Part shown: in pieces, positions 1,646 through 55,992 of the stretch
How the letters are laid out: each line of letters opens with the position of its first letter
Numbering within the stretch: position 1 is the stretch's first letter
Source of the DNA: Yersinia ruckeri ATCC 29473
GTDB lineage: Bacteria; Pseudomonadota; Gammaproteobacteria; Enterobacterales; Enterobacteriaceae
Length of the DNA stretch: 57,059 nt
Direction of reading: 5' to 3'
Assembly (NCBI RefSeq): GCF_000754815.1
Contig: NZ_KN150748.1
Location: forward strand, 3,957 to 61,015
The notes under the pieces: generated by a model
Told to the model about the DNA's origin: nothing
The model's input: only the letters and a program-made list of their open reading frames with translations
Database searches by the model: none
Program-made: the position numbers and the translations under genes

Positions 1646-1669
1646 GCCGCTTATCGAAGCGGCTTTTTT
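1646..1669 (+). terminator. Rho-independent terminator after the toxin-antitoxin operon
   Basis: GCCGCTT-ATCG-AAGCGGC forms a perfect 7-bp stem with a 4-base loop, directly followed by six T residues. It lies 33 bp after the antitoxin stop codon. Confidence 0.85.
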
Positions 1670-1678
1670 ATGCGCGTT

Positions 1679-2014
1679 CGCCCTGGCCGCGCTTTGAACA
1701 CGCCCAGGGCGACGAAATACAACAGCCCGCTTGCAGCGCCCACAGGGTGCGCCGCTCTTACTGGCCACTTCCGTGGCCGCTAAGGATGCCGTCCATGCTG
1801 TCCGGCTTCTTTCTGGTGTCAGCCTCACCTTTGCCGTTAGCGGTTTCCCTTTTGCAGTGACAGACACTTGCACGGGGCACTGACCTCACAAGGGTGAAGG
1901 CTAAAGCCCGCCATCTCCCTTGTTCGTTCAGTTGATACCCCGCGCCGGTCTTTTGTCACAGCAACGGGCTCCCCGCCTTCATCACAACAAAGGGGAGACA
2001 CCGGAAAGAAGCCG
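1679..2014 (+). promoter_or_regulatory. Strongly folded leader; candidate single-stranded-DNA promoter (Frpo-like)
   Basis: This GC-rich 0.35-kb non-coding stretch precedes the DUF932 gene. It contains a hairpin CGCCCTGG (1679-1686)/CCAGGGCG (1704-1711), a hairpin GGCCAC-TTCC-GTGGCC (1763-1778) whose stem resumes with CTTA/TAAG after a 2-base mismatch, and a long-range inverted repeat, 1803-1820 against 1997-2014, that matches 17 of 18 bases. No convincing reading frame occupies it. In F-like plasmids, structured elements of this size in the leading region (Frpo/ssi) act as promoters on the incoming single strand. The position and orientation here fit that. The function is inferred, and an ordinary structured 5' leader is the alternative. 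Confidence 0.5.
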
Positions 2015-2046
2015 TAAGGCAATCGTATCTGAGAGGAGAAATATCT

Positions 2047-2865
2047 ATGCGTTTAGCTTCCCGTTTTGGCAATGCCAATATGATCCGCCGTGACCGACCA
2101 CTGACCAATGATGAGCTTGCCCGCTGTGTTCCAAGTGTATTTTCGGAAGAAAAACATGAGTCGCGCAGTGAACGCTACACCTACATTCCGACCATCACAC
2201 TACTTGATAAACTGCGCAGTGAAGGCTTTCAGCCTTTCTTTGGGTGCCAGACGCGCGTGCGCGATCAGGGAAAGCGTGAGCATACAAAACATATGCTTCG
2301 GCTGCGCAGGGAAGGGCAGATCGCCGGTAAAGAAGTCCCTGAAATTATTTTGCTCAACAGTCACGATGGCTCAAGCAGTTACCAGATGATCCCTGGCATG
2401 TTTCGTTTCGTGTGTATGAATGGTTTAGTGTGTGGCGATACGTTCGGTGATATTCGTGTCCCGCATAAAGGAGACGTCGTTGGTCAGGTCATTGAGGGTG
2501 CTTACGAGGTGCTCAATATCTTTGACAGCGTTGCTGAATCCCGTGAAGAAATGAAAGCTATCACGTTGCGACCGGATGAGCAGCACCTGCTGGCGACTAC
2601 TGCACTGAACTACAAATATGACGGCGCACATATACCGGTGGCCGCTGAAGATGTATTGCTCACACGCCGTCACGAAGACCGCAGCCCTGATTTGTGGACA
2701 ACCTACCAAAAAGTTCAGGAAAACCTTATTAAAGGCGGACTGAGCGGACGCACTGCGAAAGGCAAACGCTCAACGACCCGTGGCGTTAATGGCATTGCAG
2801 GGGACGTCAAACTTAATCGCGCCCTGTGGGAAATGGCGGAAAACTTCAAGAATCTGAAAAGTTAA
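2047..2865 (+). CDS. DUF932 family protein (YfjQ/YafZ-like)
   Basis: The 272-residue protein matches the YfjQ/YafZ type of DUF932 protein from memory of the family: MRLASRFGNAN at the start, RPLTNDELARCVPSVFS, SERYTYIPTI, HMLRLRREGQ, EIILLNSHDGSSSYQMIPGM, then CMNGLVCGDTFG and PHKGDVVGQVIEGAYEV. Relatives occur in genomic islands and in plasmid leading regions, and their biochemical role is unknown. The start is supported by GAGAGGAGAA just upstream. It is on the plus strand, as needed for early expression from the transferred minus strand. A 12-bp-stem hairpin follows the stop. Confidence 0.85.
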   Translation: MRLASRFGNANMIRRDRPLTNDELARCVPSVFSEEKHESRSERYTYIPTITLLDKLRSEGFQPFFGCQTRVRDQGKREHTKHMLRLRREGQIAGKEVPEIILLNSHDGSSSYQMIPGMFRFVCMNGLVCGDTFGDIRVPHKGDVVGQVIEGAYEVLNIFDSVAESREEMKAITLRPDEQHLLATTALNYKYDGAHIPVAAEDVLLTRRHEDRSPDLWTTYQKVQENLIKGGLSGRTAKGKRSTTRGVNGIAGDVKLNRALWEMAENFKNLKS

Positions 2866-2951: not shown

Positions 2952-3257
2952 ATGTGCAGTACCTCTCCTGAGTTTAAAAAATGTCTGGTATGTAGTATCG
3001 GGCATATGACGCTGGCAGATTCAATCATTCTGAAAGGACGTTCATGGGAAACGGCCAGTTGAGTTGCAGAATATGATTATGGTTTGATGATTTCATTGTA
3101 CAACGGAAAGAGAACGCTTCTTCGTCTGAAAGATTTTGGTATGTCCAAGTCCTTGCGGAAATTCATTCTGAAGATGATACAAAAACATCATGTCCATATG
3201 ATTGAGTTCGATCGTGATGGTGATGCTATTGAGGGGGAAGAATTTTTCGAGTGGTGA
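2952..3257 (+). pseudogene. Small leading-region gene interrupted by one in-frame TGA
   Basis: From ATG at 2952 the frame reads MCSTSPEFKKCLVCSIGHMT... to SWETAS, then TGA at 3060-3062. It continues in the same frame with VAEYDYGLMISLYNGKRT and ends ...GEEFFEW before TGA at 3255-3257. Both parts look like one protein of about 100 residues resembling the small DUF5983-type proteins of plasmids and islands; that family name is tentative. No frame change is needed, so a single point mutation (for example TGG to TGA) explains the break. A hairpin follows the second stop at 3268-3293. Confidence 0.6.
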
Positions 3258-3403: not shown

Positions 3404-3790
3404 TCAGGATGATTTTGATTCTGCCTGCTCAGAAATTTTTGAATTTGCTGATTTCTCAACAACCGGTTTCTTGCGACTTTTGGTCGTACCGGTATCAATC
3501 GCCTCTTTTATCGCTTTTATGCTGACAGTTATCCCAGCCAAATCAAGCGCTGATTTTATCTCAGCCACCGAATAACCTTTTTTCACAGACAGTTCAATCA
3601 ACTGTTCTCTGAGGTGTGAAAGTACATCCTTTCCTTTCATGCGTGATGCATTCAAATCAGGTAATTCAGCGAGCTGAATTTTTGCAAGTTCTAGCTGTTC
3701 CTGCGTGTAAAAACTGTTTGCGGCCATCCTCATATCCTTCTGTGCTTTGTGCAGAGTTAACTTTCCAATTATACCCTTGTATTCACTCAT
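3404..3790 (-). CDS. Putative oriT-accessory protein (MobC-like)
   Basis: 128 residues, divergent from nikA across the oriT region. The first 40 residues are helical. Residues about 60-95 (LREQLIELSVKKGYSVAEIK, then SALDLAGITVSIKAIKEAI) look like a helix-turn-helix of the kind found in small plasmid mobilisation proteins, and the C-terminal 30 residues are a Lys/Ser-rich tail. A role in relaxosome assembly is inferred from position next to oriT, as for MobC in IncL/M plasmids. I do not recognise the sequence with certainty. A regulator of the nikAB promoter is the main alternative. Confidence 0.45.
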   Translation of the reverse strand: MSEYKGIIGKLTLHKAQKDMRMAANSFYTQEQLELAKIQLAELPDLNASRMKGKDVLSHLREQLIELSVKKGYSVAEIKSALDLAGITVSIKAIKEAIDTGTTKSRKKPVVEKSANSKISEQAESKSS

Positions 3791-3980: not shown

Positions 3981-3995
3981 TAAGCAGGATTGAAG

Positions 3996-4340
3996 ATGAG
4001 CAAGAGTGAAAAACGCCAGAGAACGGCTTTGCTGGGCAGCGTGCGATGCTTCCCTGAAGAGAAAGAACAGATACAGGCCAGTGCCAAATCAGCCGGTCTG
4101 TCTACCGGTGAGTTTCTTCGGCGTTCAGCTCTTGGTCGTCGTATTGTGGCTAAAGGCGACACACGGCAGATGAATGAGATACTGAAGCTGGGAGGATTGT
4201 TGAAGCATCTCTACAGTGAGATGAAGAAAGACGGTGTTATGACGACGGAAAGAAGCAAAGACTTTTCTGACGCTCTGATTGCGACAAAGGTTGCTTTGAT
4301 GAAGTTCAGAGCTGACAGCCTGAACAATACTGAGGACTAA
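3996..4340 (+). CDS. nikA: NikA-like ribbon-helix-helix relaxosome protein
   Basis: 114 residues from the ATG at 3996; a TTG two codons earlier is less likely. The N-terminal part has a basic strand (KRQRTALLGSVRCFPEEKEQ) followed by two helices with AGLSTGEFLRRSALGRR, the usual NikA/MobB ribbon-helix-helix layout. Family members bind the oriT inverted repeat, bend the DNA and recruit the relaxase. The gene starts just downstream of oriT, and its stop is 1 bp before the nikB start, indicating translational coupling. Confidence 0.85.
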   Translation: MSKSEKRQRTALLGSVRCFPEEKEQIQASAKSAGLSTGEFLRRSALGRRIVAKGDTRQMNEILKLGGLLKHLYSEMKKDGVMTTERSKDFSDALIATKVALMKFRADSLNNTED

Positions 4341-4341
4341 G

Positions 4342-6267
4342 ATGCTTGCGGTAGTCGCTGAAAGAAGGCGTGACGGTAAATCCAGTTTCGTACAACTTAT
4401 CTCTTACACCATCCTGCGTGATGATGTGGAGATGAGCGAAACGTTGTCGCCAGAAAAACCGTTTGTTCGTAAGTCCCGGGCGGAAGATAAAATTTTCAAT
4501 GACCTCGTTGGGTACGCGACGCGTAATGCGCTGCCTGATTCGCAGGATATTATCGCAACGTTCCCGGACGGACGCCAGCAGGTGCGTTGCGATAAAGTCA
4601 TCTGCGAAACTAACTGTTTTTCACTGGAGACTTCGTCTACGGAAATGGACATGGTGGCCATGCAAAACACGCGCTGCAATGACCCTGTCTACCACGCCAT
4701 CCTGTCCTGGCCGACCTCAGAACGGCCGACGCCTGACCAGATTTTTGAGTCAGCAAGGTATTGTCTTAAGCGTCTGGGAATGGAAGATCATCAGTATGTT
4801 TTCGCCATACATGATGACACTGATAATGTGCACTGCCACCTGACCGTGAATCGTGTCAATCCGGCCAGTTACAAAGTCGCCGCCCCCTACAATGATTATT
4901 TTACCCTTGACCGTTGCTGTCGTGAGCTGGAGCTTAAAAATGGCTGGAAGCATGACAATGGACCTTACATGGTTAATGGCGACGGTGCGATTTCCCGGAA
5001 CCGTAAGTTTTACAAATCAGCACCTTCCGCTGCACGACAGATGGAGCACTTTGGCGACAAGGAAAGTCTGTTCTCTTATGCCGTAGATAATTGCAGGGAG
5101 AAGCTGAATTCTTTGTTTATGCAAAGTGATTACAGCTGGGATGAAGTGCATGACATTCTGATCGCTGCCGGGCTTGAGCTACGTAAGAAAGGTGAGGGCC
5201 TCGCTATCTATGACGTTGCCAATGATGAGCAATGTTCAGTTAAGGCCAGCGATCTACATCCGGAACTGACGCTGAGCTGTCAGCAGGAATTGCTCGGGAA
5301 ATTTAATCCAGCATCCATTGTTCGTGAAGTTAACAAGGATGGTAAAGATGTACTGCTGAGTACAGTGAACATTGATTCGCAGTATGACAACCGCCTTCAC
5401 CGTCGCGATAACGGGGCGAGAGCTGAACGTCGTAATGCGCGTGCAGAGGCAAGACAGGATTTAATTTCCCGCTACAAGGCATACAAAACCAGTTTTGTCC
5501 GGCCGGGAATTTCTGCTGATGAATCCCGGACCCGATTCCGTGAACTGTCGGCCAGTTATCGCATTCGTAAAAATAATGTCCGCCTGAATGAACGTGATCC
5601 ACTGCTGCGTAAACTGATGTTCCGTGCGCTGGAAGTTGAGAAAATGAAAGATATGGCTGCGCTGCGTCTCCAGCTTCGTGATGAGAGAAAGGCTCTGAAA
5701 GAGAGACCAGATGCCCGTCCGCTGTCATATCGTGCCTGGGTGGAAGTGCAGGCAACGCAGTATGATGCTGCAGCCATCTCGCAGCTGCGTGGCTGGGCTT
5801 ATCGCGAAAAGCGTAAGAACCGCACGGCGACAATCTCCAATAACTTCATTCTTTATGCAGTTGCTGATGATATCAAACCTTCGCAAATTCGCGGCTATGA
5901 TACGCATGTGAACCGCGATGGTGCAGTAGTGTATTCGTCGGGTGGTAAACCTGTGCTTCTTGATCGAGGATTGTTTATTGAGGTTGCCGATGTGCCGGCA
6001 GAGAAGGGTAAAAATCTGGCGATGGCTTTGCATATTTCGGCCCAGAAAAGCGGCGAGAAGGTTGAAGTTCGGGGCGATAAGTCTTTTGTTCAGGGAACTA
6101 TGCAGTACATACCTCATTTCAATGCGTCGTCAGGAAAAACTGTACCATTAACGCACCCGGCTCAGCGTCGCCAGGCTGGTTATGACGTAGTGCCACAGAT
6201 GCGGGATAATGCTCCCGTGTCACCATCGAGTACACCCAACCGTTTTACGCCACCAAAACCACGCTGA
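4342..6267 (+). CDS. nikB: MOBP relaxase, NikB-like, with LPD7-like C-terminus
   Basis: 641 residues. The N-terminal relaxase domain has the candidate nucleophile Tyr22 (FVQLISYTILRDD) and the metal-binding motif HDDTDNVHCHLTVNRV with His157, His164 and His166. The C-terminal part (about 470-610) resembles the LPD7 domain of large plasmid proteins (RTATISNNFILYAVADD, then DTHVNRDGAVVY). The protein nicks the oriT minus strand and leads it through the transfer channel. R64 NikB is about 900 residues, so this is the shorter type, as in IncL/M MobA. A terminator follows. Confidence 0.9.
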   Translation: MLAVVAERRRDGKSSFVQLISYTILRDDVEMSETLSPEKPFVRKSRAEDKIFNDLVGYATRNALPDSQDIIATFPDGRQQVRCDKVICETNCFSLETSSTEMDMVAMQNTRCNDPVYHAILSWPTSERPTPDQIFESARYCLKRLGMEDHQYVFAIHDDTDNVHCHLTVNRVNPASYKVAAPYNDYFTLDRCCRELELKNGWKHDNGPYMVNGDGAISRNRKFYKSAPSAARQMEHFGDKESLFSYAVDNCREKLNSLFMQSDYSWDEVHDILIAAGLELRKKGEGLAIYDVANDEQCSVKASDLHPELTLSCQQELLGKFNPASIVREVNKDGKDVLLSTVNIDSQYDNRLHRRDNGARAERRNARAEARQDLISRYKAYKTSFVRPGISADESRTRFRELSASYRIRKNNVRLNERDPLLRKLMFRALEVEKMKDMAALRLQLRDERKALKERPDARPLSYRAWVEVQATQYDAAAISQLRGWAYREKRKNRTATISNNFILYAVADDIKPSQIRGYDTHVNRDGAVVYSSGGKPVLLDRGLFIEVADVPAEKGKNLAMALHISAQKSGEKVEVRGDKSFVQGTMQYIPHFNASSGKTVPLTHPAQRRQAGYDVVPQMRDNAPVSPSSTPNRFTPPKPR

Positions 6268-6563: not shown

Positions 6564-7613
6564 ATGACTATCACGGCTATCACGCAGTCACTTTCTACAC
6601 CGCGTTTTGCGACTTACCAGTTGCCGATTTTGGGAGGTACCTCCCCGGAACAGTGTCTGGGAATGTACCTTTGGAACAAACAACTCGCCAGCGCCTTTTT
6701 ACCCGTTCTTCAGATTGTCGAAATCTCGCTGAGAAATGCGATTCATCAGTCATATGTTGCCGCGCAGGAAGCAGAAATCGAAAAAAGTTTTCCGCAACCC
6801 ACTTGGGCAGCTAGAAAAGAAGCGGCTAAAAGCTGGTTTATTAACGTGTTCACTCCGATAAATAACCGCGAAGCTAACAGAAATATCGAAGCTGCTAAAC
6901 GGCAGCTGACTATAGATAGAAAGCCACATACTCCTGAAAATATTATCGCAAAACTCACTTTCGGATTTTGGGTATCGCTCGTCAAAAATGATTATGACAC
7001 GCGCCGGGCTACCTATTTAACGCTTTGGCCCGACCTCCGCGCTGAAGTTTTCCCTAACGCAGTAGATACAAATACCCGTAATCCACTTTCTATAAACAGC
7101 ATTGGTAATGAACTGAAGGAAATTAACAAAATCCGCAACAGGTTATCCCATCATGAGCCACTGTGGCGTAATAATTCGGCTTATCAGGTGGAGGAAATTA
7201 TCAATAAGGTTATAGAACATTACGACCGCTGCCTGAAAGTCATTAACTGGATTAACCCTTCTAATCTGAAGCTGTTAGAGCTTATAGATAATAATCGTAA
7301 GATGGCCGGGCTTTGTAATCTACATGCCCTGTGGAAAAACAAACAGCTTCCGGCAGGTCTGGTAACATTACCGATGAATCTTGCGTGGGCTGATAGTGTT
7401 AAATTAGATACTGCACATACCGGTGAAGTTGTAGCGGTGATCTCCGCGACCGCTATCATGATAAAAAGCGAGAAGGATAAGGTTGTGTTTCACTGCATCC
7501 AAGCTGATGTTGATGGAGATATGACTGCATATACCATGGGTGCCAGGGTTCATTTTTATCCGCAAATCTCGGCTGCCAGGTATCCCAACGCTAAAAACGT
7601 AACGCGATTGTGA
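6564..7613 (+). CDS. Abi family HEPN protein with C-terminal cold-shock-like domain; likely phage defence
   Basis: 349 residues. The first 230 match the Abi_2 type: LQIVEISLRNAIHQSYV near residue 50, then the HEPN ribonuclease signature RNRLSHHEPLW near residue 195 (an RN-x3-H motif). Proteins of this family cause abortive infection, probably by cleaving RNA. The last 70 residues (TGEVVAVISATAIMIKSEKD, KVVFHCIQADVDG, GARVHFYPQIS, PNAKNVTRL) follow the strand order of a cold-shock/OB-fold domain, which would bind single-stranded nucleic acid. It is monocistronic, with its own promoter and terminator, in an accessory insert between nikB and nuc. Family assignment is firm; activity is inferred. 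Confidence 0.75.
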   Translation: MTITAITQSLSTPRFATYQLPILGGTSPEQCLGMYLWNKQLASAFLPVLQIVEISLRNAIHQSYVAAQEAEIEKSFPQPTWAARKEAAKSWFINVFTPINNREANRNIEAAKRQLTIDRKPHTPENIIAKLTFGFWVSLVKNDYDTRRATYLTLWPDLRAEVFPNAVDTNTRNPLSINSIGNELKEINKIRNRLSHHEPLWRNNSAYQVEEIINKVIEHYDRCLKVINWINPSNLKLLELIDNNRKMAGLCNLHALWKNKQLPAGLVTLPMNLAWADSVKLDTAHTGEVVAVISATAIMIKSEKDKVVFHCIQADVDGDMTAYTMGARVHFYPQISAARYPNAKNVTRL

Positions 7614-7627
7614 ATTGTATAAAAAAG

Positions 7628-7650
7628 CGCCGATAATTTGGCGGTTTTTT
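7628..7650 (+). terminator. Terminator after the Abi gene
   Basis: CGCC (7628-7631) and GGCG (7640-7643) form a short stem around 8 bases, followed by a run of six T residues at 7645-7650. It lies 15 bp after the stop. The stem is short but the T run is good. Confidence 0.5.
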
Positions 7651-7820
7651 GTGCTCATTAGGTAAGCAACTTGCTTTTCAATACTGCAATAGCATGGTCT
7701 AAGCCAGAACCGCGCAATGAAACGTTTGCTCATGCATTGTTGTCTCATGGGGAAGGGGCTGGAGTATCTCCAACAACTCGATTTCTGTGACTATCAACGC
7801 TGCGGGCAAGTAAGCTTGGT

Positions 7821-7850
7821 AGCCGTCCTTCGGGGCGGCTTTCCTTTTTT
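7821..7850 (+). terminator. Strong hairpin with UUCG loop and T run
   Basis: AGCCGTCC-TTCG-GGGCGGCT forms an 8-bp stem with one T-G pair and a stable TTCG loop, followed by TTCCTTTTTT. There is no gene directly upstream on this strand (7651-7820 shows nothing I can support), so it may be left from a former gene or protect the next unit from read-through. Confidence 0.7.
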
Positions 7851-7858
7851 AGGAACAC

Positions 7859-7907
7859 CGGCTTTGTGGGGCATCCCAAGCTTCGTTTGAAATGCCCCAC
7901 AAAGCCG
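7859..7907. repeat. 16-bp perfect inverted repeat upstream of the TrlF-like gene
   Basis: CGGCTTTGTGGGGCAT (7859-7874) and ATGCCCCACAAAGCCG (7892-7907) are perfect inverted copies around a 17-base loop. There is no T run on either side. It directly follows the UUCG hairpin and precedes the trlF-like promoter region. It could be the edge of an inserted cassette, a site for a DNA-binding protein, or an RNA hairpin. Confidence 0.7.
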
Positions 7908-7920
7908 TGACGTTACTGTG

Positions 7921-7956
7921 GTGCGCCTGTTAAGGCTGGCTTATGATTGAGCGCAC
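7921..7956. promoter_or_regulatory. GTGCGC/GCGCAC inverted repeat in the trlF promoter region
   Basis: GTGCGC at 7921-7926 and GCGCAC at 7951-7956 are inverted half-sites 30 bp apart (three helical turns), 37 bp upstream of the start codon. The spacing would suit a dimeric regulator bound across a promoter. No clean -35/-10 pair can be fixed. Confidence 0.35.
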
Positions 7957-7992
7957 ACACAGCAGGTAACCGCAGGATACGGAGAATAAAAA

Positions 7993-10695
7993 ATGAAAGG
8001 CTCTGAGTGGAGTAAATGGGATTTGCATATTCACAGTCCCATGACGTGGATGGCGAGTACATTTAAAGGTCCGGAAAGTATTCCTGAATTTATAAAAAAA
8101 CTGGGAGAGTCAGGAATATCGCTTATTGGCCTAACAAATTATTTCTTCCTGGCGGAAAACGAGATTGAGATTATACGTGAGGAAATAGACAGGCAGGGAT
8201 TTAATATTACTGTTTTGCCGAATGTTGAATTCCGTCTCGCACAACCAAACAAACAGGGAGACTGGATAAATATCCACTGCTTATTCTCTGAAAAAATCCC
8301 GACTGCTAAGATAAACCAGGTGTTGTCAAACATGACGATAGCAACGAAAACTGCTGCAGGTAGACCTGTTTATTGTTCAGAGTTGAGCCTGAAAGAAAGT
8401 GGAAAAAATATTTCCGAAATCACTGTCAACTTCGAAGCTCTTTGCGAACATATTTCTTCCCATTTTGAACTCTTCCGCGATGCCATTATTGCAGTCTGTC
8501 CAAATGGCTATGGTGGCTACAGGCCAAACGGTGAGGGGCGATCCAAAGAGGTGGCAACACAGATAGATCGCGAGGGGCACATAATTCTCGACAGCTCTCA
8601 GGACTCTCTACCTGTTAGGGAATTTTTCTTAATGACTGATCGCTATCCCGGCGCTAATAAAAAGCCGGTGTTCAGGTGTTCAGATGCACATGGCCTTGAG
8701 AAAACTGGAACGATATTTAGTTGGGTAAAAGCAAAGCCAACTTTTGAAGGTCTCCGCCAGACTCTGCTAGAGCCAGAGGCCCGCCTGAAACTCGAAGAAG
8801 ACTGGCCGCAGCAGCGCACTGCGAAAGTGCACTTCAGCAGAATAGAGGTAGAGGGGAAGATTTTTGACGGTCAGGAAATCCGATTCAAAAAGCTTTCAAT
8901 TCCGCTTAATGAGGACATGGTCGCTATTATCGGCGGCCGGGGTACTGGTAAGAGCCTAATACTGGATGGCCTGCAGTCGCGCTTTACGCCGTCACGTCCT
9001 GAAAACGTACGCGCACGTCCTGTATCGCCGCAACGGCTTTCTGTCCAGCTCAGTAAAACAGACGGAGAGTATAAGGAGTTTGACGGCATTGATAACTCTT
9101 ACAGCTATCTTCACGTTTCTCAGGGTGAAATTAAGGATCTGTGCCAGGAGCCTGAAAAAATCAGCGATGAGATAAAGAAAATGCTCCGTCTTCCTCCCCA
9201 GTCCTTCCCTGTGCCGCTCAGAAACGAGCTGGAATCGAACCTGAATGAATTCCGCAGTTTGTTCGAATTCTTCAATATGAAGAATGATAAAGGTCAGTTT
9301 ATAAATCGAGAGGAATATCACACTTCGACAATTTCTGCTGTACAGAAACATATTGATACGCTGACTAGCGAGAAAAACCGTGAACTGATTAAAACATTTC
9401 AGGGGAATGGTAAAAGCCTTGCGGATATTAACTCTCAACTAAACTGGTTAAATGAATTCCTAAAACAATTATCAGATAAAGAAAGCGAATTAAACGACCA
9501 GATTGACTTCATCAATGCGAAGGGAACTGAAGAACACGTCATACCCCATGTCAACTTCGAACCGCAGCGTGGTGTTATCAATAATAAAATCAAACTGGCT
9601 AAGTCTGAATCTGAAAAAATGGGAGCGGTAAATCAGGATATTATTAATCAGTTCCGCCAGCAGGGAATAGAACAGGACATTTCCGGTCTTCTCGATAAAG
9701 TTACCGAATATCAGCAGATGATTAACCGTGCTGAACTTGAGCGTGAAGAGTCGCAACGCAGACTGGCGGTGGGCAAGAAAAATCAGGAGAGCCGAAAAGA
9801 GCTGATTAATCGTGTTCTATCACATATCCGGCAGGAAAAGGAAACGGTGGATGCGGCGTTCAATGCCCTTACTGAAGCTAAAGAGCATTATACTGCTGAT
9901 CAGCAGACCCTTGTGGCGGAAATCCTGCAGGATATCGGGATTTATGGTGAGGTGACGTTTGACCAGAATGCGTTTTATGCGGGCGTCCTGAAATGCATGA
10001 ACGGTGGGAAATTTCGTGCCTCAAGGGAGGGAGAAACTCAGACCGACAAACTTGCGGTACTTTTCAACGTTCACACCGTTGAAGATTACACCCGCCTGGT
10101 CAGCAATGAAAATATCCTTAAGGTTCACGACGATAAACAGGCAATGACAGATATCTCTCTGAATAATCTGTTGTGGAAGCAGGAATATTTTAACAGTGCG
10201 GGGCCTCATGAGCTTCTGGCCCACCTGTTCAGCCCGGACAGGATCTCCGCCTATCTGGGCGTCAAGGCGCAGTTTACCTATAAAGGAAAGACCGTCGAAA
10301 AGCTTTCTGCTGGTCAGAGAGGGACGTTCTATGTCTGCCTTAAGCTCGCTACCGATCCGTTTGGTTCACCTTTTGTGTTCGACCAGCCCGAGGACGACCT
10401 TGATAATGACTTTATCATGCACCATCTCGTCCCGCTGTTCCGTAAGATAAAAAAGTACCGACAGGTCATCATTGTGACTCACAATGCCAATCTGGTAGTG
10501 AACTGCGACGCTGAGCAGGTTTTGGTGGCCAGCAACAATGATGAGGTTATTACCTATCGCTGTGGGGCCCTGGAAGCAGGAGAGCTGGCGCACGGAAACA
10601 CCATGCGTCAGGCCATCTGCAACGTGCTGGAAGGTGGACATCTTGCTTTTGAACAGCGTGAACGTAAATACGGTCTGCTGAGACCAGTTCTCTAG
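7993..10695 (+). CDS. TrlF-like PHP-domain ABC/SMC ATPase; candidate phage-defence protein
   Basis: 900 residues. The N-terminal PHP domain shows WSKWDLHIHSP with His12 and His14, Glu79 (LPNVEF), His95 and Asp231-His233 (RCSDAHG), which could bind metals for phosphoesterase or nuclease activity. The ATPase follows: Walker A GGRGTGKS (314-321), a long coiled-coil middle (about 400-650), the signature LSAGQRG (about 771), Walker B/D-loop FVFDQPEDDLDN and an H-loop VTHN. This SMC/Rad50-like head joined to PHP is the TrlF type. A GGAG ribosome binding site precedes the ATG. It is a single-gene unit beside the Abi gene; defence function is inferred from type and location. Confidence 0.8.
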   Translation: MKGSEWSKWDLHIHSPMTWMASTFKGPESIPEFIKKLGESGISLIGLTNYFFLAENEIEIIREEIDRQGFNITVLPNVEFRLAQPNKQGDWINIHCLFSEKIPTAKINQVLSNMTIATKTAAGRPVYCSELSLKESGKNISEITVNFEALCEHISSHFELFRDAIIAVCPNGYGGYRPNGEGRSKEVATQIDREGHIILDSSQDSLPVREFFLMTDRYPGANKKPVFRCSDAHGLEKTGTIFSWVKAKPTFEGLRQTLLEPEARLKLEEDWPQQRTAKVHFSRIEVEGKIFDGQEIRFKKLSIPLNEDMVAIIGGRGTGKSLILDGLQSRFTPSRPENVRARPVSPQRLSVQLSKTDGEYKEFDGIDNSYSYLHVSQGEIKDLCQEPEKISDEIKKMLRLPPQSFPVPLRNELESNLNEFRSLFEFFNMKNDKGQFINREEYHTSTISAVQKHIDTLTSEKNRELIKTFQGNGKSLADINSQLNWLNEFLKQLSDKESELNDQIDFINAKGTEEHVIPHVNFEPQRGVINNKIKLAKSESEKMGAVNQDIINQFRQQGIEQDISGLLDKVTEYQQMINRAELEREESQRRLAVGKKNQESRKELINRVLSHIRQEKETVDAAFNALTEAKEHYTADQQTLVAEILQDIGIYGEVTFDQNAFYAGVLKCMNGGKFRASREGETQTDKLAVLFNVHTVEDYTRLVSNENILKVHDDKQAMTDISLNNLLWKQEYFNSAGPHELLAHLFSPDRISAYLGVKAQFTYKGKTVEKLSAGQRGTFYVCLKLATDPFGSPFVFDQPEDDLDNDFIMHHLVPLFRKIKKYRQVIIVTHNANLVVNCDAEQVLVASNNDEVITYRCGALEAGELAHGNTMRQAICNVLEGGHLAFEQRERKYGLLRPVL

Positions 10696-21223: not shown

Positions 21224-24200
21224 TTAGATTTGCAGGCCGCGAGCAGCGATAAGCTCGCTGGCCAGACGGTTAATCACGTTGCCGTGGTCAGTTTCTTTGG
21301 CTTCTTTTTGGCGAAGGTTAATCAGTTTTTCTGCGCTGCCGGTCGGGAAAGATTCGGCCAGAATGGCACGGGCTGTTCGTCCGTCGAGCAGGTCATACAG
21401 CTGATCGCGCAGCGCGGCATCTTTCGGGGTGGAGTTCAGCGCCCAGAGTTCTTTCGGGCCCAATGTGTTTTTGAGAATTTGCACCACCCGGCCCGTTTTC
21501 AGACGGAAACACGCCAGGAAGTGAGTGCCGCTTCCGTCGGGTGATGCGCCGGAGCCAATATGGCGGAATGCCAGCGCGGTGTGCATCGGCACGCCAAAAT
21601 GCTCCGTCAGAAGCGGCAAGTCTTCATGGCTGATTTGCATCAGATACAGGCTATTAGCGGACTTCAGGATCTCATGCGGGAAGTGGTTGAGATACTGTGA
21701 ACTGAGGACGGTACGGATAAAGAATTTACGGTTTTCCAGATCCTGAGTGACCAGTTTGCTCATAATAAAAGGAATATCCTTTGCGTTATGAAGCTCATCA
21801 TAGATTTTGGTTTTAACCTCCTGTGCCAGCTGCGTCAGGCGTTCGTGATGGAAAGGGCGGTACATTTCTGGTAGGTGGCTCATCAGTTCGTTACGGTACT
21901 GCGGTAACTCAAAGTGTCCAGCGGCCAGTTGCCCTGCATAAAGGTACATCAGCCCGGTTTTCACCTGACCGGCGCGGGTTTTGCCACCGACCACGTTGTT
22001 CAGATCGATGGCAATCACACGGGTATCCGGGTTGAGCTCGAAGACTGTGCGGCCAGCCAGCATTTTATACGTGCGCAGCGCATCAGACAGACAGCGTTCA
22101 ATGTAGCTCAGCAAAGACTCACCGCTGCCGTGGCGGGTAATGGTTCCATATCTGGAAAGCACGTCGGCATCATTAAGGTAAAGCTGCAGGTCGCTCAGCT
22201 CAGGCATGGCCTGATAGTGCGCCCGTGAGGCGGCCTTCAACTCACCTTTTTCAAACAGCAAATCCCGGACTTCAAACCAGGTCGTCTTCTGCCACCAATG
22301 TGCATCATACTCATGATTCAGCCCTGTCTTCTCCAGTGCCGTATCGACGAGGGGCTCTATCGTCGGGGCATAACGTACCGGGTCCTTGTCGGCGTTGTTG
22401 TCAAATGCGGTTTCGATAACGGTCGTCAGGATTTGCCGGCAGTCCTGCGCGTTGGGTGGAATACCGGTTTCTGGATCAACGCAAAGTGCTTCACAGATAT
22501 TAACCATAAACTCTAATTCGGGTGTCAGGGGGTATTTCATACCCAACTGGACATCGAACGGGTTTTTGCAATGCTCGCGGCTGTTTTCCAGAACCAGGCC
22601 GACGACCTCATGTTTGCGATCGGGCGGCAGCGCATCACGCACCAGTTTGACCAAACCCTGTGCACCAAAGCCTTTATCCACATAGGAGAGGAAGGGAATA
22701 TTGTTTTGCCCGGAAAATAAAATGGCTTCGCTGAGCGCGCCAAGTGCAACGGTCTTACCCGTACCCGGCTCGCCAGCTACAATTTCGGTAAATTTCGTTT
22801 GCAGGCTACTTGCTAGTTTCACCGGGTAAGGTTTTCCGTCCGGTGTTGCAAACACAATGCTGGCATCGTCTGCCCAGGGGGTGGCCGGTCGCTGCAGGGG
22901 TAGTAATGCCAGCGCGGCTGAAAGCGGAGGAAACATCAGCGACGGAATACTCAGCGTATTGGCACCGGTGAGTGTTGAGACCCATGCGCCGATGGGATCA
23001 CCAAACGTACCGGTCACCTCGCAGACTCCCCAGGACTGTAAACCCTTCTGCAGCAGCGTGCGGTTACGCTTAACCACCTCTTTTGAGCGACCCCACGTAC
23101 TGGCACAGACCGTCATGACGCACACGGGATCGCTTTTGCCTGCATGCTCCAGCCACTGAACGGAGTTATAGACAGAACGAAGCGGAGGTAGAAGGGCAGC
23201 CATACCCAGTACCATTTTTTTACCGCCGAGAACTTTTAGCCCATTGGGCATCAGGTCCATACGAATACGCCAGGGAAGCCGGCGACTCATTTTACTGAAC
23301 AACTCGCTGAAGGTTTCCGGCTGCTGCGGGCCGAGGGACAGTGCAAGCGTCGCATGCCAGTGGCCATCAAGATGAACAAAGCTGCCATCTGCCTCCGGTT
23401 CACTATTAAATATTTGATAGTTAAGGTGCGGGGCCAGCAGCATCGAATGGTCCTGGCCTTTGGGTAACCCGTGTGGCCATTTTATATCGCCAGGCAGGAA
23501 AGGTTTCCAGTCTGGCGAGGTACTGTCACGTTCAACTTCTTCGCGCAGGTGGAAGCCAAATTCGCGGGCATTCATCAGACGAATACGCGTGCCAAAATCA
23601 CCGTTGCCAAACTGATTTTCCAGCGTGGTCACGAAGGTATCGTGGCGGATTTTCAGGCCTTCCAGCTCATGGAACAACGGATTCTGGCCGTAACGCGCGC
23701 CAGGCGCTGCTTTCAGTATCGCATCCCTGCGTTTCTCTTCATCCCTGCGTTCGGATGTGGCCAGCGCTTCTTTCGAGGTGTACACCACAAGAAAAGCACG
23801 CTCCCGGGCGACGAACGGTGCCAGTTTCTCAATACGCTCGTCCAGAATGTCAGTCAGGTCGAGGCCCATACGTCGGAGGCCCCGGTATTGGTGTGCCAGC
23901 AGTTTACGCAGCTCTTCGCGTGCCTTGTCTGGATCACGCTCAAACACAAAGCTGAGTTTATGGCCAACGGTCTGAAATTCGCTGGTCAGCAACGTTTGCA
24001 ACCGGTCGATATAGCTACTGAACAGCGCCTTATCGCGTTTTTCTTCTTCAGTAATAGCCTGTTGTTCGTTGAACTGGCAGTAAGTCCCTTCAACTTCGAA
24101 CACGCTGGCATAATGTCCTTCCTCAGTCACGAAGATATAAGACGCCTCCATATCCGGGCGGCGCTTTTTGTCATCGTCGGTGAGACCGATTGTGGTACGC

Positions 24201-52899: not shown

Positions 52900-52976
52900 A
52901 AAAACCCCCCGAAATCTGTTCGCAACTTGGCGGAAGGGAGCAGATATCAGGGGGTCACAAAGCAGGCGCTGGCCTG
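52900..52976 (-). ncRNA. Antisense RNAI controlling repA
   Basis: On the minus strand a perfect -10 box TATAAT (plus-strand 52983-52988) with TTGTTT 16 bp upstream would start an RNA near 52976. It would run through the complement of the stem-loop and end after the same hairpin at a run of five U residues (plus-strand AAAAA at 52900-52904). Length (about 75 bases), loop sequence and location match RNAI of IncI/IncB/IncL/M replicons, which pairs with the repA leader, blocks the leader peptide and pseudoknot, and sets copy number and incompatibility. Confidence 0.8.
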
Positions 52977-53022
52977 TGAGAGATTATAACTCATGCAATT
53001 CAGAAAACAATACCCATCCGCC
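52905..53022 (+). promoter_or_regulatory. repA leader stem-loop and pseudoknot
   Basis: A stem-loop is formed by CCCCCCGAAATCTG (52905-52918) and CAGATATCAGGGGG (52941-52954). Its loop contains GGCGGA (52929-52934), exactly complementary to TCCGCC (53017-53022), which lies 17 bases ahead of the repA start. This is the pseudoknot of IncI/B/L/M replicons: translation of the leader peptide opens a competing structure, the pseudoknot forms, and repA translation is enabled. Confidence 0.82.
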
Positions 53023-53046
53023 ATCTGTGTAGGATGGGGTGAATAG
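52993..53046 (+). CDS. Leader peptide for repA (RepY/RepB type)
   Basis: 17 residues, MQFRKQYPSAICVGWGE, ending at TAG 53044-53046. It overlaps the repA GTG (53039) by 8 bases in another frame, the arrangement that couples repY to repZ in IncI1 and the leader to repA in IncB and IncL/M. The coding act matters more than the peptide. RNAI covers its upstream region and would repress it. Confidence 0.8.
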   Translation: MQFRKQYPSAICVGWGE

Positions 53047-54136
53047 TCAAAGCCAACAGGCCATTCAGGTACATCCTGATCCTCTAAAACGTACACGGCG
53101 AGGCGAATCAAACGCTTTGCGACGTGGACAATCTAAAGTTCATCGGCGTTATACACCCCAGTTGTGTTGCTCTGTGCCTCGAGGCATGGCGGCTAAAGTT
53201 GTGGCGCGTATGCAAAGCCATAATTGGCACCGCAATCATGATCTCATTGAACTGCGGCGGGAAGGTTATGTGCCATATACCAAGCGTAATGACCCTTACT
53301 TCACGCCAAAGGCAATGCGTATCTCAGCACGTTCTGAAAGCTGTGAGGCATTGACCGCGTTGTCAATGGCTCTGGCTGCCAATTGCGATTACAACCCAGA
53401 CAGTGACTACCCGTTTGAAATCATGGCTCCGTTTGAGCAAATAGCGGCCGCGATGGGGATGTTGCATGTTTATGATAATGGCCGCAAAGCCTATGACAGC
53501 CCATTACATGCCTTGTCAGTACAGGAACAGCTCGGGTACGTGATTGTTCTACACGGTAAAGATACTGACAGTGGCCAGAATAAACCGTTGCGGTTATGGC
53601 TGACCGAAAAATTCTTCATTTCACGGGGGATCGCCGTTGAAGAGATCCGTCATTGGCTTGGCCAGTTCAAAACCTGGGCGATTAAAAACGGGTTGACTGA
53701 AAGTTTACGTAAAAAGTATGAACGGCACCTGCTGCGTGTTGAGCGTATTGGTATTGATCTAAATGACAAACCCTCTCTACGGAATCGCTTGAAACAAATC
53801 AAACGTTGGGTTGTCAGCCCTGACCTGGCAAAAGAGAAGCAAGAAAAAGTGGCTCTATTAGAAGGACGACTGGCTGAAATAGAGCGTGATAATACCCAGC
53901 GTCTCGATCTTATTCTGGACCAGACACAGCAAAATATCCGCAGTCTGGCCAAAGCGAAGCATAAACGCAAAACTCCGTATTATGATGCGTATGTAAAATG
54001 GTCAACCAGTTCAAAAGTCACGAGATTAGACGTCGTGATGCAAGAACAGGCCTTACAGAAAGAGCAACCCGGACTGAGCCACAGTGACCCGGAAACTTAC
54101 TACCGCCTGTTGCTTGAGCGAGCAGGCATAATCTAG
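53039..54136 (+). CDS. repA: RepA, replication initiation protein (IncFII_repA family)
   Basis: 365 residues starting with GTG, fixed by the overlap with the leader peptide and by AGGAT just upstream. The basic N-terminus (about 10-50) is followed by the winged-helix-type initiator region (FTPKAMRISARSESCEALTA, NPDSDYPFEIMAPFEQIAAA) and a long helical, basic C-terminal part (KEKQEKVALLEGRLAEIERD). It matches the IncFII_repA group that includes IncI, IncB and IncL/M initiators. It should act in cis at the origin just downstream. Confidence 0.88.
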   Translation: MNSQSQQAIQVHPDPLKRTRRGESNALRRGQSKVHRRYTPQLCCSVPRGMAAKVVARMQSHNWHRNHDLIELRREGYVPYTKRNDPYFTPKAMRISARSESCEALTALSMALAANCDYNPDSDYPFEIMAPFEQIAAAMGMLHVYDNGRKAYDSPLHALSVQEQLGYVIVLHGKDTDSGQNKPLRLWLTEKFFISRGIAVEEIRHWLGQFKTWAIKNGLTESLRKKYERHLLRVERIGIDLNDKPSLRNRLKQIKRWVVSPDLAKEKQEKVALLEGRLAEIERDNTQRLDLILDQTQQNIRSLAKAKHKRKTPYYDAYVKWSTSSKVTRLDVVMQEQALQKEQPGLSHSDPETYYRLLLERAGII

Positions 54137-54163
54137 CCCCAAGATGACCCCATCCCGAACCCT

Positions 54164-54184
54164 ACCGTGCGTTGCGCGGTTTTT
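54164..54184 (+). terminator. Rho-independent terminator after repA (CIS-like element)
   Basis: ACCGTGC-GTT-GCGCGGT forms a 7-bp stem with one T-G pair and leads into TTTTT. In related plasmids a Rho-dependent CIS region lies between repA and the origin and loads RepA in cis; this hairpin occupies that place. Confidence 0.6.
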
Positions 54185-54245
54185 GTGTTGGCCGAACCCC
54201 TGAAGTTGAGTGTTATTTAACCTCTACTCAACGGACTATTTTTCA

Positions 54246-54368
54246 TTATCCACCCGAATTTATGATCGACAGTCACGCAATTCTCATTACGGTGAATATT
54301 TGTACTATTAACTTCGAATTGATGTACTTAATTTCGTAACCTGTTAGATAAATATCATTAATTTCGAA
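54246..54368. other. Putative oriV: DnaA box and helically phased repeats
   Basis: TTATCCACC (54246-54254) is one base from the DnaA box TTATCCACA. An AT-rich stretch follows with three direct repeats of TTAAYTTCGWA: TTAACTTCGAA at 54308, TTAATTTCGTA at 54328 and TTAATTTCGAA at 54358. The spacings are 20 and 30 bp, so all three face the same side of the helix. They are good candidates for RepA binding sites. Position about 110-230 bp downstream of repA matches the origin of IncI/L/M replicons. Confidence 0.6.
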
Positions 54369-54390
54369 CGTTATTACTGAACAAAATAAG

Positions 54391-54527
54391 CCTCTAAAAA
54401 GAGGAGTACTTTTCGAGCGGCTAAAGCCTGCTCTCTAAAGTAGCTCCCCTCGCTTCGCTCAGGGCAAATTACTCATTGGCAATACAGCATAAAGAACAAT
54501 AATAAGTAGCTCCCGGCTAAAGCCGGG
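54391..54527. other. Cluster of small hairpins downstream of the origin
   Basis: CCTCT-AAAA-AGAGG (54391-54404) and CCCGGC-TAAA-GCCGGG (54512-54527) are perfect hairpins; GGC-TAAA-GCC also occurs near 54419. AGTAGCTCCC appears twice (near 54440 and 54505). No reading frame is supported here. They may belong to the origin or be termination sites for rightward replication or transcription. Confidence 0.4.
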
Positions 54528-54664
54528 CAAAAGAACTTCACATAACCATTAGCTATTAACGGGGGTCAAAGCCCAATGGAACGGAAACGTACGCTAAGAG
54601 CGTAACCTTCTGTATTGTCAGTTTTAAGTACACATCAAACGGACATCATCCTTCAAAAAACGTA

Positions 54665-54690
54665 CTTACCGTACGTTTTCGTACGGTAAG
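54665..54690. repeat. 11-bp perfect hairpin with TTTT loop
   Basis: CTTACCGTACG-TTTT-CGTACGGTAAG. The stem contains the palindrome CGTACG, and further CGTAC copies lie just upstream (54588, 54661). No gene adjoins it within 500 bp. It could be a single-strand initiation site or a site for a DNA-binding protein. Confidence 0.6.
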
Positions 54691-54944
54691 GCTTCAAACC
54701 CCTTAACTAAAAATTAATCCGGCTACATCAATTCCAATCGCTAATTCTTTCTTTTGTCTCCGACCATTAAACAATTTCATTGCTGTAAGCTGGGTTATAA
54801 CGGCTCTCGCATAGCTCAAGCCTCAAAAAAATGGTCTGGTAGGGGAAGGGATGGATTGGTGGAACCTATCAACAGCGTAACCGGCTGCGCCGGGCTACGG
54901 CGCCATTAACCACTGTGCTCTGGTCAACTTCTCAGGGCGCCTCT

Positions 54945-54992
54945 ATGCGCCTTCGGCGCATTCCTGGAATGCCTGCGCACTGCTCGGCATTC
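54945..54992. repeat. Two adjacent hairpins in the gene-free region
   Basis: ATGCGCC-TTC-GGCGCAT (54945-54961) and GAATGCC (54967-54973)/GGCATTC (54986-54992). The stretch 54780-55030 is richer in GC than its surroundings and has no supportable reading frame, so a structured RNA or DNA site is possible. Confidence 0.4.
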
Positions 54993-55068
54993 TTAACCAG
55001 TCACTACTCCAATAATCATTTATTGATAGTAATGGATTCAATTAATCAACATAATTGGGGTTCCACGC

Positions 55069-55117
55069 GGCGTTGTTGAATAAATCGAACTTTTGGCCGT
55101 AGTTAGGATCAGATCAC
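55069..55117. mobile_element. Remnant end of an IS5-family (IS903-like) element
   Basis: GGCGTTGTTGAATAAATC (55069-55086) matches 17 of 18 bases of the IS903-group terminal repeat GGCTTTGTTGAATAAATC, as remembered. It is followed by CGAACTTTTGGCC and GGATCAGATCACC, which resemble the non-coding start of such elements. No transposase frame or opposite end is seen, so this is a relic. The small minus-strand frame through 55038-55349 is not supported as a gene. Confidence 0.55.
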
Positions 55118-55239
55118 CACACTCCTGATCCTGGGGTTCTACGCCGGAACCGCCGAAATTTCCGTTACGCCATTTCAGCCCGACTGCTAGCGCATCCAAG
55201 GGACTGTTTGGAGAACGGAAATAGTGCCCCCCCTCCGAG

Positions 55240-55992
55240 TTAGCTGATCTGCTTTCTAAACCAAGCCTTGAACTGATTGCGTTTTGAGTGAGTGTACAGG
55301 TCGTATTCAATAGGGTACTTTTTACGGAACTCGTTGATTGCTCGCTCACACCCTTCTTTTGTTTTCACTTGCTCAGAGGAAAAACCTACCGATGCTATTT
55401 TTTGCATTATCTGAGGATCCGTATGATGTGAAGGTTTTTTTAATTGAGGGCCGACGTCTAACCCGAACCGAATCAATTTTTCATAAGCTAACTCTCTCAC
55501 ATCAAAAATATGGTCGTTATTCATCAAATCAATCAGGGTATCGATACACTGCTGACATTTATATTTTCCAAGCAAATGAACAGCCAGCATTCTTTTCTCA
55601 AATGAATATACGATGTTTTTATTTCTTATTATTTCTTTCCTTGCTTTTTCTGTTGGCTCAGATTCTATATATTTATCTTTAGGTTCTTCAAGTGAAACTA
55701 AGTAATCTGCTGCTGACATGGAATTTTTAACTAAATTTTGTTGGAAGCTACGAAATGCAGTTCGCATATAAGATAAAGGATGAGCCATCGGGTGCGATTT
55801 ACCAGGTTTTGTTAACCTCTCATGCTCCTGGTAGCGCTTATTAACTCTTTCCCAATCCTTCGGATAGACACGTTTAAACTCAGAAAAGAAAGAATCGAAA
55901 TCACAACCAACAGGAAGGGAAGATAGCACAGTTGCTATTTTGAATTCTTTTTTCGGTATAACACTACCTTTTGATACCCGTTGTCTACTCAT
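55240..55992 (-). CDS. Hypothetical protein with a HEAT-like segment
   Basis: 250 residues from the ATG at 55992 (GGAGAAGGTG upstream), 13 codons inside the longest frame. It is basic and helical, with no signal peptide. Residues about 155-200 (KRMLAVHLLGKYKCQQCIDT, LIDLMNNDHIFDVRELAYEK) look like one or two HEAT repeats. I do not recognise a family. The gene is AT-rich and stands alone between IS relics, which suggests transfer from elsewhere. Confidence 0.6.
   Translation of the reverse strand: MSRQRVSKGSVIPKKEFKIATVLSSLPVGCDFDSFFSEFKRVYPKDWERVNKRYQEHERLTKPGKSHPMAHPLSYMRTAFRSFQQNLVKNSMSAADYLVSLEEPKDKYIESEPTEKARKEIIRNKNIVYSFEKRMLAVHLLGKYKCQQCIDTLIDLMNNDHIFDVRELAYEKLIRFGLDVGPQLKKPSHHTDPQIMQKIASVGFSSEQVKTKEGCERAINEFRKKYPIEYDLYTHSKRNQFKAWFRKQIS

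Follow-up and report, generated by a model that had tools for sequence, protein, structure and literature searches.

A candidate single-strand promoter and priming element before a DUF932 gene of a Yersinia ruckeri plasmid, and a family of similar leaders in plasmid leading regions

Genes of the leading region protect a plasmid on entry, while it is not yet double-stranded, and the closest described counterparts of the element considered here are Frpo1 and Frpo2 of plasmid F, single-stranded DNA (ssDNA) promoters reportedly described by Masai and Arai in 1997. Frpo1 or Frpo2 is reported to be required for fusions to ygeA, ssb and yfjA to be expressed early in recipients (PMC9849209), and thousands of Frpo-like candidates have been obtained by BLAST (PMC11541004), in lists that are reused by PMC12826799. 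Here, a 57,059-nucleotide (nt) stretch of DNA from Yersinia ruckeri ATCC 29473 (the window) is analyzed around a non-coding leader at positions 1679-2046, directly before a DUF932 gene, which a sequence-only reading had proposed as an ssDNA promoter. A minus-strand fold and, at family level, promoter-like boxes at canonical spacing partly uphold that candidacy, while a weak -10 box and the absence of the hairpin apex from the window copy detract from it. The best explanation, with a probability of roughly 0.55, is a leading-region single-strand element in which a Frpo-like hairpin would serve early DUF932 expression alongside a priming module. Judging from its sequence matches, the leader is one copy of a repeated family, here termed window-type, whose members are found ahead of leading-region genes on enterobacterial plasmids; the family is probably a second class, Frpo-like in working and not homologous to Frpo in the main hairpin.

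Frpo1 and Frpo2 of F share with the leader a leading-region position, a non-coding length of a few hundred nucleotides, a hairpin on the transferred strand (T-strand) with the better z on that strand (Frpo1, same two-strand folding: -5.9 and -4.2) and a small conserved module. Frpo1 precedes a small gene and a DUF932 gene, the latter 68% identical to that of the window and, from gene order, inferred to be ygeB. The proposed Frpo-like size, place and orientation hold up in this parallel, with the leader on the leading side before genes read from the T-strand as template. The main hairpins, in contrast, lack sequence homology, the putative boxes of Frpo are on the opposite arm, and the apex is AT-rich in Frpo but conserved and GC-rich in the relatives of the window leader. 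A comparison of five Frpo-type sequences with 41 window-type copies returned only a match of 29-33 nt, confined to the small module and seen in two of the copies (best E 3e-6, the set searched being tiny), and homology of the main hairpin to Frpo was rejected for want of any sequence match outside that module. Published Frpo/ssi searches used blastn at E 1e-6. The Frpo-like elements of ColIb-P9 (L002; 27858, 34891 and 37829) are like the leader in architecture, two of the three with the module, and unlike it in their Frpo-type hairpin; ColIb-P9 additionally has a weak window-type stretch at 22393-22514, before a DUF1281 gene (E 2e-4).

Like the leader family, the Frpo' and Frpo* candidates of PMC11541004 are recurring ssDNA promoter candidates located ahead of leading genes. 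In the S. marcescens plasmid of that paper, covered up to its last 3.3 kb, the Frpo profile finds four elements, equal in number to the paper's one Frpo plus three Frpo'; the window-type profile adds one weak stretch and two matches confined to the small module. The sequence-only reading was aware of no earlier description; for the window-type class the literature searches found none, although the published candidate lists of PMC11541004, Frpo* among them, could include it. As a kind, ssDNA promoters are already described.

The polarity of transfer was taken from the origin of transfer (oriT), where the minus strand resembles the oriT of ColIb-P9 by eye, with a GGTGTCGGG..CCTGACCAG block, an inverted repeat and CCTG|TCCC. 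The window cut was placed between 3879 and 3878 from the nick position of ColIb-P9:

3879/3878, minus strand: inferred oriT nick, by comparison with ColIb-P9, its 5' end running to lower coordinates

This inferred nick, with its 5' end leading leftward, puts 1679-2046 on the leading side of oriT and makes the minus strand the one that enters as T-strand, from which plus-strand genes can be read. The resemblance to ColIb-P9 supports this assignment and agrees with the earlier claims of a leftward-moving minus strand and of a Frpo-like place and orientation. Of the genes said to be readable, the 'small broken gene' proves to be what is left of a DUF5983 gene, interrupted in frame by a stop at 3060.

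Within the leader, four structured parts are recognized:

1678-1712: outer hairpin, arms 1678-1689 and 1701-1712 (12 nt, 92%)
1730-1755, minus strand: conserved hairpin module, CTTGCAGC, a variable stem and GCGCCGC, the stem imperfect in the window copy
1763-1778: short perfect hairpin GGCCAC/GTGGCC between the small module and the main hairpin, seen in sequence and fold
1796-2021, minus strand: main imperfect hairpin of the T-strand, its base formed by arms 1796-1820 and 1997-2021

The leader is GC-rich, at 58.4% compared to 50.0% in the window as a whole, a content matched by 3.0% of the window's 368-nt stretches, and the two stable hairpins (1678-1689/1701-1712 and 1763-1778) and the 17/18 inverted repeat reported earlier are real, the repeat 1803-1820/1997-2014 matching at 94.4% over 18 nt and extending to 25 nt with 84% complementarity (1796-1820/1997-2021). 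These confirmed observations nonetheless understate the leader, as nearly all of 1796-2021 self-pairs on the T-strand as a single imperfect hairpin, and this long hairpin, the conserved module and the missing apex had been overlooked. Folded as DNA, both strands surpass their shuffles (0 of 100 as good in either case), the minus strand (-99.7 kcal/mol, z -7.0) more so than the plus strand (-83.8 kcal/mol, z -5.2).

A profile built from 16 copies was used to search for relatives among the loci examined, and returned 46 matches with a score of at least 60 and a distinct last 150 nt, weaker matches being excluded. Up to five full copies occur per leading region; some of the 46 are partial, and two of them (L016, 1591 and 1860) may be one interrupted copy. 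A majority (35 of 46) end no more than 12 nt from the start of a same-strand open reading frame (ORF) of at least 50 codons, 34 of these with a Shine-Dalgarno-like stretch, and the remaining 11 are separated by 18 to 190 nt from the first such ORF found. The genes downstream are annotated as, among others, DUF932, antirestriction, ParB-family, DUF1419 and DGQHR proteins. The full-length copies of two complete plasmids (E. tarda, n = 4; pYR4, n = 3) lie in a single parM-relaxase block and point in one direction. Three different copies matched 64 (the window leader), 216 and 134 of 72,556 PLSDB records, and each of two queries had DNA matches in five of 394 order-level genomes, the window's own genome included.

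The 41 matches that span at least 280 model positions were reduced to 21 copies below ~90% identity, all of which were aligned. The consensus fold pairs 93.6% of the cells, and 27 of 49 pairs are altered on both sides somewhere in the alignment. Cells changed on both sides number 144, whereas 500 shuffles average 46 and slid controls give 18-32; the consensus structure was derived from the same alignment, which favors covariation, though hardly by the margin seen. Energy is lower on the T-strand in 20 of the 21 non-redundant copies and z in 17, and both are lower in all five F/ColIb elements. In each of 22 regions folded, of which F and ColIb-P9 contribute five, the T-strand has the more stable fold. 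These data support selection that keeps the minus strand foldable and not the mRNA, because the departures from Watson-Crick pairing are those that a folded minus strand tolerates. The strand test was restricted to 31 pairs recovered whichever strand's alignment was folded (with counts unchanged when wobble was forbidden), at which the T-strand departures are G.T (16), A.C (3), purine-purine (24), pyrimidine-pyrimidine (3) and T.T (5). Single mismatches in helices common to the folds of both strands divide into 53 tolerated by the T-strand and 13 by the plus strand, compared to 152 and 128 in shuffles. A C-to-T bias, if exposed single strands have one, would account for the G.T departures though not for G.A. 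Asking whose mismatches are tolerated is a cheap means of telling a DNA strand that folds from an mRNA that does, applicable to any leading region.

Candidate promoter boxes on the T-strand, and the hairpin apex, are placed as follows:

1954-1959, minus strand: GTGACA, a -35-like hexamer in the gene-proximal arm of the T-strand hairpin, base-paired when folded
1932-1937, minus strand: -10-like hexamer TATCAA at a spacer of 16, mostly unpaired in the fold
1916-1917: hairpin apex, where relatives carry 54 nt that the window copy lacks, the placement ambiguous by a few nucleotides

An ordinary plus-strand sigma70 promoter in the window was rejected, no consensus site being present on that strand within 1560-2200. 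In the family alignment, a single column holds GTGACA, followed after 16-18 nt by TATCA or a weaker hexamer (mean score, 7.43 of 12), a value reached by none of 300 permuted consensuses. The match to TATAAT is highest at spacings of 16-18 among 56 offsets (3.14; mean, 1.68; sd, 0.50), with 15-17 giving 3.05, and across the family the -35 tends to be paired (mean unpaired, 0.18) and the -10 to be unpaired (0.59). That the family boxes form a putative promoter is likely; being located on the gene-proximal arm and directed toward the apex, they would have polymerase copy the opposite arm, and the RNA would extend around the apex before entering the gene.

Several observations weigh against an ssDNA promoter of this kind. 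The -10 is weak, with TATCAA or TATCAG in seven of the 21 copies, TATAAA or TACAAG in three, poorer hexamers in 11 and the last-position T mostly absent, and no single sequence has a T-strand box beyond the 95% shuffle level. The plus-strand maximum of 6.33 is reached by 9% of controls, which makes the rightward reading weaker and not nil, and the boxes could be an ordinary leftward promoter, since in double-stranded DNA they point away from DUF932. The same scan is not significant for the F/ColIb control set (70% of 300 controls reach it), and in those elements the visible -10-like unpaired stretch is on the other arm, the boxes running in the opposite direction along the hairpin. The strand preference has its own exceptions: the plus strand has the better z in four of the 21 copies, structures taken from the T-strand alone give 14 G.T to 5 A.C (p 0.06), the F/ColIb set contributes ten such mismatches divided 7 to 3, and the ColIb-P9 stretch 22393-22514 folds without preference (z -4.2 and -4.5). 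The 21 copies are related, so that these counts are not independent events. Finally, the copy in the window is without the apex.

The small module offers a second function. The same module occurs in both Frpo of F, in two of three ColIb-P9 leaders and beside ColIb-P9 repA (1817), and, with one change, beside IncFII repA (L096); it is the only sequence found in common between window-type leaders and Frpo. In 332 kb scanned it was found 14 times, compared to 0.25 per shuffled set (mononucleotide, 20 sets), a count that excludes the module of the window, with its imperfect stem, and the three leaders of pYR4. All loci examined yielded 43 hits (stems of fewer than four pairs dropped, which again excludes the window's own; three duplicates, L091, L094 and L095, included), of which 27 are beside window-type hairpins, nine beside Frpo-type hairpins and seven beside neither. 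Its stem covaries across the family (helix 8). In origins of the R1 type a primase G-site is located downstream of oriR, and the module looks like a candidate primase G-site acting on the T-strand: like G-sites of plasmid origins, it is a conserved hairpin adjoining repA-type origins (ColIb-P9 1817; IncFII repA), and unlike them it is also found in leading-region leaders. The region beside the window's own replication gene (54131-55300) has no module, and among the papers listed by the literature searches none was recognized as defining plasmid G-sites. Both classes of leader are present on the same contigs (L012, L017 and L018), which suggests that window-type leaders and Frpo are interchangeable parts. 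On these three contigs (at 3680, 6899 and 6901, respectively) a module also lies 336-355 nt upstream of a start codon, accompanied by a hairpin that belongs to neither class and may represent further ones; the frame behind the L012 module resembles ssb by its first residues.

Under the favored explanation, the hairpin would on arrival act in the manner of Frpo, presenting RNA polymerase with a double-stranded promoter where the rest of the template is single-stranded, and DUF932 would be made before the second strand, while the small module would prime second-strand synthesis through primase. The likeliest boxes would be the paired GTGACA and the bulged TATCA of the gene-proximal arm. Transcription would proceed along the other arm and around the apex into the gene, with an RNA start near plus-strand positions 1885-1890. 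The promoter would fall weak or silent in double-stranded DNA, where a rightward reading of this site offers a poorer -10. A more far-reaching proposal, which we put forward tentatively, is a second class of ssDNA promoter, unrelated to Frpo in sequence, opposite in geometry, loading at the hairpin base and coupled to a primase site. The arm opposite the copied one would then supply the paired -35 and bulged -10, the promoter would be full only while single-stranded, because in duplex the better -10 is on the wrong strand, and one leader would start both the early mRNA and the second strand. If such a class works, surveys that start from known Frpo sequences miss a set of early-gene switches, which in the loci examined precede DUF932, antirestriction, ParB-family and further leading genes.

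The leader might instead act in priming only, the whole of it serving as an initiation signal for the second strand (primase or primosome) with the genes read later from ordinary double-strand promoters. The recurrence of the module in F and ColIb-P9 and beside the repA genes of ColIb-P9 and IncFII, far above shuffled sets, would be expected of such a signal, but the placement of most leaders directly before start codons, their number per plasmid, the sigma70-like boxes at canonical spacing and the lack of a visible plus-strand double-strand promoter in the window make priming alone unlikely. A structured 5' untranslated region controlling translation or termination is very improbable: the plus strand does fold well as RNA (z -6.3), but the mismatches favor the minus strand (53 of 66) and G.T exceeds A.C by 16 to 3, the opposite of what selection on an mRNA would leave, and no Rfam match at the gathering score falls within the leader. 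An RNA leader was rejected on this asymmetry.

Quite conceivable, although at less than even odds, is decay of the window copy, in which the family is functional and this leader a dead remnant in a leading region cut down by IS6, a view compatible with the single-strand element favored above. The 54-nt gap, seen against pYR4 and an Erwinia plasmid, removes a run of nearly invariant columns that 19 of the 21 aligned copies keep, and the six Y. ruckeri plasmid records with an identical leader lack the apex as well. Further, the next gene (DUF5983) is broken, and the leading region is truncated by IS6 according to the annotation and PMC11429247. Both boxes and both arms are nevertheless kept, the DUF932 frame of the window is open along its entire length, and a second natural apex-less copy (L007, 7132-7446) lies 45 nt before an open 118-codon frame. 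The window copy, its activity doubtful because the apex is missing, may thus be weakened or dead, and within its family it is a poor example on which to base a promoter claim. The reverse arrangement is found in pYR4 (L008, from 9432): its leader retains the apex, and its unannotated DUF932 frame ends after 132 codons.

By its leader, 100% identical in six Y. ruckeri plasmid records of ~103.9 kb, and by a neighborhood that agrees with the pYR4 papers, the window is plasmid pYR3 or a near twin; a genome search puts it on contig 2 of a two-contig genome. According to those papers (PMC11429247, PMC6232867), pYR3 has a cbtA gene interrupted by an IS6 element, as in the window annotation, and has higBA and a backbone of ~55 kb in common with pYR4, a related plasmid that is conjugative (PMC11429247). 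The words leading region, oriT and DUF932 are absent from the main text of PMC6232867. Around the leader the window contains the following:

1646-1663, plus strand: terminator-like hairpin after the upstream higBA genes, immediately before the leader
2047-2865, plus strand: DUF932 gene downstream of the leader
2952-3257, plus strand: DUF5983 gene remnant, in-frame stop at 3060-3062
3990-4340, plus strand: NikA-like relaxosome protein, on the trailing side of oriT
4342-6267, plus strand: MOBP relaxase

The second piece of 2952-3257 matches DUF5983 and the first matches nothing; the gene order DUF932-DUF5983 recurs in other leading regions. On the trailing side, behind the relaxase, 6564-10695 holds an Abi_2-family gene and a TrlF-type ATPase, and a PK-repBA pseudoknot (Rfam RF01089) lies at 52903-53028, before the replication gene.
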